From positions 1,689,949-1,753,948 of the forward strand of contig NC_021487.1 of the NCBI RefSeq assembly GCF_000427095.1: a stretch of 64,000 nt of DNA. Direction: 5' to 3'. Each line of letters begins with the position of its first letter. Position 1 is the stretch's first letter. Under the pieces are notes generated by a model. It was not told the origin of the DNA. It saw only the letters and a program-made list of their open reading frames with translations, and did no database searches. Shown here piece by piece: positions 44,109 through 49,944 of the stretch. Made by a program: the position numbers and the translations under genes. This DNA comes from Chthonomonas calidirosea T49 (lineage in GTDB: Bacteria > Armatimonadota > Chthonomonadetes > Chthonomonadales > Chthonomonadaceae).

Positions 44109-44207
44109 AGCATCGCATTATGCCATACGCGTACCTCTATCGGAAGAAAGAAGGCGAAGGCCGCTGATTTCGGCATTCGCCGTTTTGTGCTGCGTAACCC
44201 AATAACC

Positions 44208-47200
44208 ATGAGCCTTAAAGAGCTTCTATCGCTAGCCGATCAACTTACAGGCCTCGATACGCTGGTCAGTGCCCTGCGCGACTCGCCATCGCCCACCATC
44301 GCGCAAATAGAAGGCCTGGCTGGCACCGCCAAGGGCTTCTTGCTGGCACACCTTACTACCGCTCTCCAACGGCCTATCCTCCTTATAACCTACCAGCAAG
44401 AACAAGCCCAACGGCTTGCCGATGACCTTCTTCATTTCGGCCTTCCCAGTGAAAGCGTGGCCGTTTTACCGGCCTCGCCAAGCCTCTTTACCCCCGACGA
44501 TGTGGTTGACCACCATCTTATCGGAGAACGCCTGAGCGCCCTAAAGCTCCTAGGGCAAAACCGGCCATGCGTGGTTATCGGTGTTATCGAGGCTATACTG
44601 CGCCGAACCATCCCACCCGCCTACCTTCAACAGGAAAGCCTTCGCCTAGAGGCCGAAACTGAGGTAGACCTCGACACCATCCTACACCGACTTGTGAAGC
44701 TCGGCTATCTCCCTACCCTCACCGTTACCCAACCCGGAGAGTTTAGCCGCCGGGGCGGCATCCTCGACATCTATCCCTCCACCGCTGAGGCGCCAATACG
44801 AATCGAGCTCTTCGGCGATACCATCGATTCGATCCGCGCTTTCGATGTAACCACACAGCGCTCCATCCGCCGAGAGGCCTGGGCAGAGATCGCCCCCGCC
44901 CGTGAGGCCGTCCTCGAACCGCAGCGGATCGTCGAAGCCCTTCATCGCATAAAAACGAGGCTTGAAACCCGCCGCGCCGAACTGCTCGCGCAAAAAACAC
45001 GAGAGGCTACCAAAGCTGCCGAGCGTCTTACCGAACTGGTGGAGGCCGATCTAGTCGCCCTCGAACAAGGTACTGGATTTAACAGCTTGGAGCGCTACAT
45101 TACCTATATCGTCCCAGAAACTATCTGCGCTCTCGACCATCTGCCACCCGATGGAATGGTCGTGCTCGATGAACCACACCAGGTGCAAGAGCACTGGCTG
45201 CGGCATGATGCCGATCTGCGCTCCGCTCGCGAACGCCACTATGAACGTGGAGAGCTTCTCGACCTGGAACCTCCCATCCTGCCCCTAGAGGAAGGATACG
45301 CGCGACTTCAACAGCATCGCCTCCTGCTGCTGACCCTGCTTGCACGCCATGTCGAGCCGTTTACTCCCCTCTGCTTTCTTCAGGTGCATTCGGCCGCCAT
45401 GGAAAGCTACCGCGGCCGGCTCTCCCTGCTTGCAGATGAGATAGGCACCTGGCTGACAAATGAATGTCGTGTGGTCATCGCCTCCGACCAACCGCAGCGC
45501 GTGCGCGAGATATGCGCCGAACTGCATCTGCCAGTGCAACCCAAAGAACAGACTCCGCACAACCCCGGCCTCTATGTGCAGGAGGGACGCCTTCGCGCCG
45601 GCTTCAAATTCACCGATCTTAAGCTCTATGTGCTGACCGATGCGGAGCTGTTCGGCGCCGCTCGACCCGTTCGCTCCCATCGCAAGGTGGCCGGGGGTGT
45701 GGCCATCAGCTCCCTGCTCGATCTGCGCGAAAACGACTACGTGGTTCACATCCATCACGGCATCGGCATCTATCGGGGCCTCGTCCGTCGCCAAATTGAT
45801 GGCACCGAACGCGATTTCCTCTTCATCGAATATGCCGGCGGAGATAAGCTCTATGTGCCCGCCGATCAGATTGACCGCATCCAGCGCTATATAGGAGCCG
45901 ATGGGGCTCCCCCTCAGATCAACCGCATTGGCGGAGGCGACTGGCAGCGCACCAAGCGCAAAGTGCGCGAACAGGCTAAGCAGATGGCGGCAGAGCTGCT
46001 GCGCCTCTATGCTGCCCGCGAGGCCGCCACACGCCCTCCCTTCGGCCCCGACACCCCGTGGCAGATCGAAATGGAGGAAGCCTTCCCCTACGAAGAGACC
46101 CCTGGGCAACTACAGGCCATTCAAGAGGTAAAAGCCGACCTCGAACGCGAACGCCCCATGGATCGCCTCATCTGCGGCGATGTGGGCTTCGGTAAAACCG
46201 AGGTTGCCATCCGTGCCGCCTTTAAAGTGGTATCTGCCGGTAAACAGGTGGCTATTCTCTGCCCTACCACCGTGCTTGCCGCTCAGCACCACGCCACCTT
46301 CTCGGAACGCCTCGCCGCCTACCCCATCACCATCGAACTGCTCTCGCGCTTCCGTACTCGCGCTGAGCAGCGCAAAACGGTGGAAGGCCTGCGAACGGGC
46401 AGCGTGGATATCGTCGTGGCCACCCATCGTCTCCTCAGCAAAGACGTGGAGTTCAAAGACCTCGGACTGCTTATCATAGACGAAGAGCAGCGATTCGGGG
46501 TAGCCCAGAAAGAGCGCCTCAAAAAACTCCGCACCTCGGTGGATGTGCTGACCCTTACGGCCACCCCCATCCCGCGCACCCTCTCGATGGCCCTCTCCGG
46601 ACTGCGCGACATGAGCCTCATCGAAGACCCACCCGAAGGACGTATGCCCGTTATTACCTATGTGCGTGAGTATGATGATGAGCTAGTTCGTGATGCCATT
46701 CTGCGAGAGTTGGAGCGCGATGGGCAGGTCTACTTTGTCCATAACCGCGTCGAATCGATCTACCATGTGGCGCAGCACCTGAAAAAGCTCATCCCCGATA
46801 TGCGCATCGAGGTGGGGCATGGGCAGATGTCGGAAGAGGAGCTTGAACAGGTTATGTTTGATTTTTACCATCATAAGGCGGATGTGCTGCTGTGTACCAC
46901 CATCATTGAAAACGGCCTCGATATCCCCAACTGCAACACCATCCTTATTGATAATGCTGACCACATGGGGCTCGCACAGCTCTATCAGTTGCGCGGTCGC
47001 GTAGGACGCTCCAACCGTCAAGCCTATGCCTATCTGCTCTACCGCCCCAACAAGGTGTTGCGCGAGGATGCCGAGCAGCGGCTTGCGGCCATTCGTGAGT
47101 TTTGCGCTCTGGGCAGCGGCTACAAAGTCGCCCTGCGCGATCTGGAAATTCGCGGGGCAGGGAATCTCTTGGGGGCCGAGCAGAGCGGTGCCATGCTGAG

Positions 47201-47749
47201 TGTGGGGTTCGACCTCTATTGCCAACTTCTTTCCCAAGCCGTGCAGGAGCTGCGCGGCGAAGAGCCCATAGAGGACATGCTTCCCGCCGTCGATCTGCCC
47301 GTCACCGCCTACATCCCCGAAAGCTATATCCCCGGCGAGGCGGAACGTATCTACTTCTACAAGCACCTCAGCGGCGCCCGCACCCTCAAAGCATCGAAAA
47401 CCTTCAGGCCGAACTAGAAGATCGATTTGGCGATCCACCGCGGCCCGTCTGGGAGGCGCTGGCCATCCTGCGTATCCGCCTTCGCTGTAAAGAGATCGGC
47501 ATCGCAAGCATTAAAGGGGATCGAAGCGGCCTCACCATTCGATTCGCCCCGCATGTTCGCCTCACCCCCGAAGCCATTCGGTTGCTGAACCACGCCTTTA
47601 AAGGCCATCGTTTCACGTCGGAAGGGGTTATCCTGCCTCTTACCAGCCATAAAGTGCGCGAGCAGGTGGAAGAGATGATCGAGGTTCTGGATAAAGCGCT
47701 GGCTTACGGCAAAAAGCCCGAAATGGCCTCCTTGCCCACCCAGAGATAG
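44208..47749 (+). pseudogene. mfd: Transcription-repair coupling factor Mfd, one-base frameshift near the 3' end
   Basis: A frame of 1069 residues from ATG 44208 stops at 47417. It carries the UvrB-like N-terminal domains, the RNA-polymerase-interacting domain (LRENDYVVHIHHGIGIYRGL near 505), helicase Walker A GDVGFGKTE near 656, DEEQ box [11 protein letters not shown] near 757 and the RecG-like motif LQLRGRVGRS-type (YQLRGRVGRSNRQAYAYLLY). The C-terminal domain continues in another frame to 47749 (SIENLQAELEDRFGDPPRP onward). One extra A in the AAA at 47388-47390 restores a protein of about 1180 residues, the normal Mfd length. I favour a sequence error; if real, the UvrA-regulating C-terminal domain is lost. 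Confidence 0.88.
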
Positions 47750-47841: not shown

Positions 47842-49944
47842 ATGGAAGCACATGGCTCCCTACCCCTATCGGCCGAAAGCCGTCGTCTCTTAGCGGCCGT
47901 TCGAGCGCTGCAATCACCAGGCCAGCCCCTCACGCTGGCTCATTGGCTGCTGGTACTTCTCGGCCAACATCGCGGCTTGGTAGAACAGATGGCCAAAGAC
48001 ATTCATCCCGAGATGCTCCTTCCCTTGCTTCAACGTCGTCTGCAGCAAGGCCAACGCGAGCCGCAGCTTCCGGAAGAGGAGGTGATTGCCGAGGCGGGGC
48101 GCATTGCACAAGCAGGAAACAGAGCCCAAATCGAAGTGCGCGATCTCTGCGCAGTCATCCTTACCCGCGCAGGCTATGCTTTGGAAGAGCCGGTTCCTCT
48201 GCTGAAAAACACCCCTGAAGAGCAGCCCTTCTGTCCCCTCCTGGACCGCTATGGAAGAGATTTAACGCGCGCCGCTCGCGAAGGTCGCCTCTCTGCCGTC
48301 GTGGGGCGTGAAGAGGAGATACAGATGGTTATAGAGACCCTCTGCCGTCGCACCAAACGCAACCCAGCTCTCATCGGGCCAGCAGGTGTTGGGAAAACGG
48401 CCATCGTGGAGGGCTTAGCCCAATATATCGCGCGCGGCGACGTGCCACCCCTTCTCCAAAACGCCCATCTTTGGGCCATCGAACCGGCCTCCCTCCTCGC
48501 AGGCACCCATGTGCACGGCGAGTTTGAGGAGCGCGTGCAAGCCCTCCTCGCCGAAGCCCGTCGCACCGGCGTGCTGCTTTTTATTGATGAGATGCATACC
48601 ATTATGCGCGCCGCCGGAGGAGGCAGCGACCTCGCCAACCTCCTAAAACCGGCACTGGCCAGTGGTGAGATCGCCTGTATCGCCGCTACCACCGACGATG
48701 AATACCGCCGCTTCATCGAAGCCGACCCCGCCCTCGAACGGCGTTTCCAACCCATCCGCATTCAAGAGCCAACGCTCGCCCAAACAAGTGCCATCCTAAA
48801 AGCCCTCCGCGACGAGCTTCAGCGGCTGCGCGGCGTCAGCGTTAGCGATGGAGTGCTCCAGCAGATCTTAGAGGTGGCCCATACCTGCCTCCGCAACCGC
48901 TGCTTTCCCGATAAAGGCGTGGACCTGCTGGAACAGTGCGTCGCCCATGCCCTGGCAAAAGGGCAAACCGAGGTCCGCGAAAGCGACGTAGCCGAGATAA
49001 CCCGCCGTATGACGGGCGTGTTGCTGACGCCCGCCGAACGCATTGCACGCCTGAAACAGGTTTTGCAGGAACGCTCTTTGATGCTACCTAGCGATGCCGA
49101 AGCGCTTGTGCATCGTCTCAGTGTCAGCCTGCGCGGCCTCGACACCCACCCCGAACGCCCCAATGCGACCCTCTTGCTCATAGGAGAGATGAGCTACCTG
49201 GCGCGCCCGCTGGCAGAGGCCATCGCCGAAGCCGTCTACGGCGATGCCGCCCGCCTCGTAGATATTGACCTTGCTGGTATGCGTGAGGCGCACGACATCT
49301 CCCAGTTCATCGGCTCGCCCCCAGGCTACGTGGGCTACGAAAGCCGTCTGCCCATCCATCAAATCGCCCAGCTTGGAAGCTGCGTGTTCCTCTGCCGCAA
49401 CATCGAATCCTGCCACAAAAGCCTTCGTAGCCTGCTAGCTCAAGCCATCGCCACCGGCCTTCTCACCGACTCGTGCGGCAAACGCATCTTCCTTAGCGAT
49501 ACCATTACGCTGCTCTCCGCCGATATAAACCCGGAACAGATTCGTAAGATGGGATTGGTCGGAGGTCATACGAAACCGACACCAGACCCGCGAGAGCTGG
49601 CCGAAACGGTGCTTGAACCCGATCTCGTGGAGCAGATGGATGAGGTGTGTCTAAGGGCGCCCTCGCCCGCACAATGCGAAGCCCTCCTTGCCACTCCCTG
49701 CCTGCAAACGCTTATCCAACGCTATCACGCGCAGGGCATCGAGTTGAACTGGGACGCCACGGCGCTGGAGTGGCTGCTGCAACGCCAGCAACATGCCGCG
49801 CACCCGCGCGACTGGGAGCGTGAAATAGACGAGCAGTTAGGCGCGATTCTAGAGCCCTACCTACCCGATGTGCCCGGCGAAATGACTCCCCTCACCGTCA
49901 CTATCTTCCAATACGACAACACCCTCCGGGCGCGCATCGCGTAG
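47842..49944 (+). CDS. ClpA/ClpC-like AAA+ protein with degenerate second ATPase domain
   Basis: A 700-residue Clp-type protein. The N-domain (about 1-110) is divergent. The first AAA+ domain is intact: GPAGVGKTAIVEGLAQYIAR near 178, LLFIDEMHTI near 248, the sensor segment ATTDDEYRRFIEADPALERR and an arginine finger. The second domain keeps the pore loop GSPPGYVGYE near 490 but has NATLLLIGEMSYLARPLAEA where Walker A GPTGVGKT should be, and SCVFLCRNIESCHKS instead of the acidic Walker B. So the second ring probably cannot hydrolyse ATP. No ClpP-binding IGF/L loop was noticed. A specialised unfoldase or scaffold is inferred. AAGGAGAGAGCG lies upstream. Confidence 0.85.
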   Translation: MEAHGSLPLSAESRRLLAAVRALQSPGQPLTLAHWLLVLLGQHRGLVEQMAKDIHPEMLLPLLQRRLQQGQREPQLPEEEVIAEAGRIAQAGNRAQIEVRDLCAVILTRAGYALEEPVPLLKNTPEEQPFCPLLDRYGRDLTRAAREGRLSAVVGREEEIQMVIETLCRRTKRNPALIGPAGVGKTAIVEGLAQYIARGDVPPLLQNAHLWAIEPASLLAGTHVHGEFEERVQALLAEARRTGVLLFIDEMHTIMRAAGGGSDLANLLKPALASGEIACIAATTDDEYRRFIEADPALERRFQPIRIQEPTLAQTSAILKALRDELQRLRGVSVSDGVLQQILEVAHTCLRNRCFPDKGVDLLEQCVAHALAKGQTEVRESDVAEITRRMTGVLLTPAERIARLKQVLQERSLMLPSDAEALVHRLSVSLRGLDTHPERPNATLLLIGEMSYLARPLAEAIAEAVYGDAARLVDIDLAGMREAHDISQFIGSPPGYVGYESRLPIHQIAQLGSCVFLCRNIESCHKSLRSLLAQAIATGLLTDSCGKRIFLSDTITLLSADINPEQIRKMGLVGGHTKPTPDPRELAETVLEPDLVEQMDEVCLRAPSPAQCEALLATPCLQTLIQRYHAQGIELNWDATALEWLLQRQQHAAHPRDWEREIDEQLGAILEPYLPDVPGEMTPLTVTIFQYDNTLRARIA

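Follow-up and report, generated by a model that had tools for sequence, protein, structure and literature searches.

A predicted subfamily of Clp/Hsp100 proteins whose second AAA+ ring has lost its ATPase motifs

How the two rings of ClpA, ClpC, ClpB and Hsp104 share ATP hydrolysis and grip has usually been studied with engineered mutants. In Pex1/Pex6 and NSF, also AAA+ proteins of two rings, one ring is weak or silent and the other hydrolyses most of the ATP; they are eukaryotic, lie outside the Clp family and are not known to dock on ClpP. An excerpt of PMC10149685 names an LGF loop as the element that attaches ClpC to ClpP and distinguishes it from ClpB. The same excerpt describes ClpI of Actinomycetota, a separate double-ring Clp clade found by bioinformatics, which occurs with and without the ClpP-docking motif and keeps the features of ATP hydrolysis and unfolding. 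The protein described here is like ClpI in being a separate double-ring clade revealed by bioinformatics, but, unlike ClpI, it has a second ring (D2) that is dead as an ATPase. We found neither a Clp with a dead D2 nor an operon joining TY-Chap and Clp genes among the listed titles and abstract openings of open-licence papers.

The gene was noted in the window, a stretch of 64,000 nucleotides from the genome of Chthonomonas calidirosea T49, which consists of one contig of 3,437,861 bases. It is a single open frame with no interruption (Table 1). Upstream of it lies mfd and downstream, on the opposite strand, murI; neither clustered with neighbours at other loci, and with crude gene calls we found no conserved neighbours of the window gene. 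We noted that mfd, at window positions 44187-47749, is split over a frame at 44187-47417 and an overlapping one at 47102-47749; from about 47.39 kb onwards its conserved end is read in the latter. This is an apparent frame break, either real or from assembly.

Table 1. Features of the dead-D2 Clp gene; positions are those of the window, residues those of the protein
Feature	Position	Strand	Remarks
Whole Clp/Hsp100 gene with dead D2	47842..49944	+	700 aa; ATG 47842, stop 49944
N-terminal region, ~residues 1-116, helical	47842..48189	+	shorter than in canonical Clps; alignment, AlphaFold
D1 AAA+ domain with lid, ~residues 132-392	48235..49017	+	Pfam, alignment, AlphaFold
D1 Walker A GPAGVGKT, kept	48376..48399	+	alignment
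D1 pore loop THVHG	48505..48519	+	Val224 in place of the canonical KYRG aromatic; alignment
D1 Walker B LLFIDE, kept	48574..48591	+	alignment
D1 arginine fingers Arg300-Arg301 (ALERRF), kept	48739..48744	+	alignment
D2 AAA+ domain without ATPase motifs, ~residues 393-700	49018..49941	+	alignment, AlphaFold
GLDTHPERPN stretch with one-residue insert	49135..49164	+	insert common to the mirror group, absent from canonical Clps
GEMSYLARP at the D2 Walker A place (lost)	49183..49209	+	canonical GPTGVGKT; alignment
D2 pore loop GSPPGYVGY with Tyr496, kept	49312..49338	+	protein reads IGSPPGYVGYE; alignment
VFLCRN at the D2 Walker B place (lost)	49384..49401	+	canonical V(V/I)L(L/F)DE; alignment
MGL at the ClpP-docking loop position	49549..49557	+	G-[FLY] kept in family; low pLDDT 570-577; alignment
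Gln598 at the D2 arginine-finger place (lost)	49633..49635	+	alignment

The Pfam models AAA, AAA_lid_9 and AAA_2 matched the protein, and the Clp-type order of D1 followed by D2 was found by Pfam, by alignment and by fold matches to ClpC, ClpA and ClpB. Its best NCBIfam scores were all to Clp models and all far under the curated cut-offs, the top one being ClpB (361 bits against a cut-off of 1232.1), so that no curated NCBIfam model includes it. There was no Clp_N match in the Pfam scan, and some structure alignments begin at residues 5-12. The AlphaFold model (27 rows; mean pLDDT 83.3, pTM 0.61) gave D2 the AAA+ order of strands and helices, and residues 570-577 fell below a pLDDT of 50, as expected of a flexible loop. 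When this model was searched with Foldseek, the best 13 rows were all ClpC chains; ClpC was also the best row in VIA-align (Z 32.2, rmsd 16.6, 642 residues aligned).

Like ClpC and ClpA, the dead-D2 Clp has the D1-D2 order, the D1 ATPase motifs, the D2 pore loop GxPPGYVG and G-[FLY] at the docking position. Unlike them, it has no D2 Walker A, Walker B or arginine finger, has lost the pore aromatic of D1, has a shorter N-terminal region and carries an insert of one residue ahead of the place where the D2 Walker A used to be. Alignment with canonical Clps shows no middle-domain segment, unlike ClpC; ClpA also has no middle domain. It resembles ClpB and Hsp104 in that the ClpB model gives its highest NCBIfam score and in that its D1 is about 50% identical to the ClpB of its own genome, but it differs from them in scoring far under the ClpB cut-off, in having no middle domain, in carrying the docking motif and in its dead D2.

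The earlier note, made from the letters of the window, had called for a search for other Clp genes in the genome, and three ordinary Clps were indeed found besides the dead-D2 one; one of them (L002) passes the ClpB model. D1 of the window protein is 46-50% identical to these three paralogues and D2 merely 27-30%. The genome also encodes ClpS and has two matches to ClpP, one strong and one weak.

To place the window protein among its relatives we used several collections. Long family matches occurred in 12 of 61 genomes, these being its own, which is counted, and those of relatives (L001 and L008-L018, the last of which stops short of D2). In Armatimonadota, a profile of the dead D2 matched at E <1e-100 in 16 of 291 genomes, the window's own again counted. 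A scan of named genomes gave 56 loci; the D2 Walker A is missing wherever the family score is high. As other Clps, L115, L117, L119-L129 and L131-L133 were excluded, their Walker A motifs being intact where the sequence reaches. The motif counts given below come from 43 distinct sequences including the window's, several of them partial, with duplicates across two collections counted once and with gaps and X left out of each count. They belong to Armatimonadota, Chloroflexota, Acidobacteriota, Krumholzibacteriota and Eiseniibacteriota, and one (L089) comes from a record labelled Eubacteriales. Long frames in L104, L116 and L092 were considered as fusions; their N-terminal stretches contain no non-AAA+ Pfam domain and seem to be read-through from ahead of the real start codon, and the candidate fusion partners were rejected. 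In two loci of Chloroflexota (L114:5524-8490 and L118:4792-8439) there are three AAA+ domains in tandem, the first with a Walker A ending in GKE or GKD, the middle one live and the last dead.

The loss of the ATPase motifs from D2 is a property of the whole set. GK[ST] was found in the D2 of none of the 43 sequences, the catalytic Glu in 0/41 and the Walker B Asp in 6/41; the arginine finger was kept in a single sequence of 41 (L113) and the sensor-1 Asn, which is also lost in the window protein, in two of 41. The GAR motif of sensor 2 is not recognisable in D2, and two alignments place this stretch differently, so the Arg may be kept. In contrast to the two ATPase-competent AAA+ domains required of Clp proteins of this kind, the family, by these motif counts, would have one. 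The pore tyrosine of D2, however, is present in 39 of the 41 sequences, missing in L114 and L118. Translation, alignment and the 43 sequences thus confirm what the earlier note had read from the window alone, a D2 without Walker A and Walker B that keeps the pore loop GSPPGYVGYE.

The dead domain has also been kept. For D2, pN/pS was 0.088 in the pair L040/L041, in which synonymous sites are saturated, and 0.080 in L108/L094, compared with 0.047 and 0.056, respectively, for D1; in both pairs computed, D2 is under purifying selection. These values, both below 0.1, and the same losses in 43 distinct sequences from several phyla make it very improbable that D2 is decaying or is an artefact of sequence errors, even if the apparent frame break in the adjoining mfd indicates that errors or decay can occur nearby. 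Since relatives from several phyla share the losses, they are due neither to chance nor to base-calling error. A typical D2 restored by error correction, which the earlier note had named as the result that would overturn its reading, is excluded by these independent relatives; together with the low pN/pS they rule out a sequence error or a pseudogene.

In D1, by contrast with D2, the ATPase motifs are invariant. With gaps and X set aside, the Walker A lysine was present in 40/40 family sequences, and the Walker B Asp and Glu (DE) and the arginine fingers in 42/42 each. The aromatic of the D1 pore loop, however, is missing from its position in 40 of 41 sequences, L102 being the sole exception, compared with Y or F in 30/30 canonical rows. 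The view that the first ring is fully intact, therefore, holds for its ATPase motifs and fails for its pore loop, where the window protein has V. In four of the 34 dead-D2 rows (L092, L104, L055 and L061) the next position of the loop holds a Tyr or Trp, which, to judge by the alignment, could stand in for the aromatic.

We noted that the family also carries a motif where other Clps have the ClpP-docking loop. All 39 of 39 family sequences have G-[FLY] there, with F after the G in 31, L in 7 and Y in 1. When 34 family rows were aligned with 30 canonical rows and 14 rows of the mirror group (described below), the motif came to share columns with the [MI]G[FIL] of ClpC-like rows. The motif is absent in L002, the ClpB by model, and in the rows grouping with L002 in the tree. 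Like the D2 pore tyrosine, it is absent in L114 and L118. G-[FLY] is a short motif within a loop of variable length, and a HMMER alignment to a single ClpC sequence put the docking stretch about three residues off. The motif favours a function together with ClpP over one as a regulator.

A comparison with other Clps in a phylogeny had been proposed in the earlier note, and it set the family apart. The tree contained 70 rows, comprising 34 dead-D2 rows (nine of the 43 family sequences, partial or with unread stretches, were omitted), 30 canonical rows including E. coli ClpA, and six of 14 rows of the mirror group. All 34 dead-D2 rows fell on one side of a branch with SH-aLRT 100, forming a separate clade that does not group with the ClpC-like rows or with ClpA, and all 30 canonical rows likewise with SH-aLRT 99. 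In trees of the single domains, the support for the dead-D2 and canonical sides was 100 and 96 for D2, and 49 and 88 for D1. By these sequence comparisons, the dead-D2 proteins form a distinct and conserved subfamily of Clp/Hsp100, so far without a name.

The mirror group (L064-L077), left out of the set of 43, consists of Clps of one Armatimonadota family. Like the dead-D2 Clps, they have the one-residue insert in GLD.R..RPN (34/34 dead-D2 rows and 6/6 mirror rows examined, compared with 0/30 canonical rows) and a GF-type docking motif, with GF at the docking position in 14/14. Unlike the dead-D2 Clps, they lost the Walker motifs of D1 and keep those of D2: in a pattern search, 14/14 had the Walker A G....GK[ST] in D2 and none in D1, and the DE pattern of Walker B was missing from D1, with VLLDE in D2 in 14/14, the latter having served as the filter by which the 14 rows were selected. 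In the six rows aligned, the Walker A of D1 has GRR at its end, and the alignment is gapped at the pore loop of D1. Because of the SH-aLRT of the canonical side (99 at full length, 88 for D1 and 96 for D2) and the common insert, the two groups are likely sisters that lost opposite motors, with long-branch attraction a possible source of the grouping.

Of the 39 distinct loci that could be tested, 19 have a gene of about 147 aa directly downstream of the Clp gene and on the same strand. This search used a profile in six frames, because gene calls were crude (longest open frames, on the wrong strand in some G+C-rich loci); L038, L047, L061 and L116 end too early to be testable. By record label, the 19 loci are from Chloroflexota (10), Armatimonadota (4), Krumholzibacteriia (3), Acidobacteria (1) and Eisenbacteria (1), and all six of the downstream proteins that were scanned passed the 27-bit cut-off of TY-Chap1 (PF22551). 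In the other 20 testable loci, the window included, no TY-Chap gene lies directly downstream. In the window's genome, PF22551, one relative and a 16-row TY-Chap profile all gave no match, the first two of these searches being without a positive control and not proving absence alone. The 16-row profile matched at 1e-6 in six of 291 Armatimonadota genomes; three strong matches adjoin a dead-D2 Clp, and around the three weaker ones there was no dead-D2 Clp within about 1.5 kb or less on either side. Thus, of the 16 Armatimonadota genomes in which the dead-D2 match is strong, just 3 gave a TY-Chap match and 13 gave none. In an excerpt of PMC9503650, TY-Chap1 is unified with T3SS and YbjN peptide-binding chaperones and placed in ADP-ribose systems; 'AAA' does not occur in the main text of that paper. 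We consider the TY-Chap/YbjN-type protein a candidate adaptor of the dead-D2 Clp.

On balance, we favour a reading in which D1 would be an ATPase motor without grip, and D2, passive but able to grip, would sit docked on ClpP, with a TY-Chap adaptor serving the machine where the operon is present. Six copies would form a double ring that hydrolyses ATP in D1 only; the movements of D1 would pass to the passive D2 ring, whose tyrosine loops may hold the substrate, and the flexible G-[FLY] loops would attach it to ClpP, into which substrates would be drawn, perhaps with little force. In operon lineages the TY-Chap/YbjN-type protein may bring clients to the short N-terminal region; as no TY-Chap was detected in the window's genome, clients there would be recognised in another way. 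The motif counts, the clade, the low pN/pS of D2, the model, the presence of ClpP in the genome and the TY-Chap operon in 19 loci count for this reading. Counting against it are the shortness of the docking motif in its variable loop, the HMMER offset, the exceptions L114 and L118 and the missing TY-Chap in 20/39 loci and in 13 of the 16 Armatimonadota genomes, together with the lost aromatic of D1, which raises the question of how D1 strokes would move substrate.

The same loss speaks for the main rival, which we judge rather unlikely: a ClpP-independent remodeller or chaperone, in which D1 would alter client complexes N-terminally without threading, D2 would be a scaffold that holds the hexamer, and TY-Chap would be a co-chaperone. 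The missing aromatic in 40/41 sequences argues against ordinary threading by D1, the union of TY-Chap1 with T3SS and YbjN chaperones (excerpt of PMC9503650) suits a co-chaperone, and the docking motif and pore tyrosine are missing in L114 and L118. A pure scaffold, however, does not explain why G-[FLY] is kept in 39/39 and the D2 tyrosine in 39/41 sequences. It is more improbable still that the protein is a regulator that mixes into, or caps, the hexamers of a normal cellular Clp and slows or redirects them. Mixed rings are conceivable, since D1 is 46-50% identical to that of the three canonical Clps in the genome, but a poison subunit has no need of fully conserved D1 ATPase motifs, and the family forms its own clade, with a D2 that is only distantly similar to those of its own paralogues. 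The 'specialised unfoldase' of the earlier note stands in outline, given the separate clade, the D1 ATPase motifs and the purifying selection on D2; unfoldase activity itself is a prediction from sequence.

The division of motor and grip between the rings, if the preferred reading is correct, may extend to the whole lineage. As a tentative and somewhat doubtful extension, the lineage would have split two jobs: in the dead-D2 branch D1 would have stayed the motor, with grip and ClpP dock left to D2, and in the sister branch the motor would be the other ring. The dead-D2 Clp would then drive a protease, docked on ClpP and fed by TY-Chap, with one ring producing the force that the other exerts. 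The D1 ATPase motifs without the aromatic, and the D2 aromatic and docking motif without ATPase motifs, represent a separation that evolution made and kept across several phyla, and hence a natural test of how two-ring machines share work. If the dead-D2 Clp still feeds ClpP, a ring can exert force that its neighbour has generated. The linked TY-Chap gene would, moreover, suggest a function for chaperones that until now have been a prediction from sequence.

Several further genes were noted beside the family. In two Armatimonadota loci (L045:7309-7899 and L046:541-1161) the Clp gene is followed by a different protein of about 200 aa, perhaps YbjN-like and perhaps a replacement for TY-Chap; the two proteins resemble each other by eye, and one scored 21.8 bits against the YbjN cut-off of 22, the other being unmatched. 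In four Chloroflexota loci (L085:8681-10924, L086:4108-6387, L088:3167-5473 and L093:3272-4312) a third gene follows Clp and TY-Chap. Its product is about 750 aa where complete and gave no Pfam match in the two that were scanned (L085 and L088); the model, which begins with an alpha/beta part, contains long helices and is rich in beta structure at its end, has a mean pLDDT of 56, too low for a claim about the fold. A defence-system reading was rejected, PADLOC giving only weak matches. In two Levilinea loci (L108:8187-11015 and L094:8193-11033) the Clp gene overlaps an open frame by a few bases, which in L108 encodes a response regulator-PAS-GAF-GGDEF protein, with a PAS-like sensor kinase after it.
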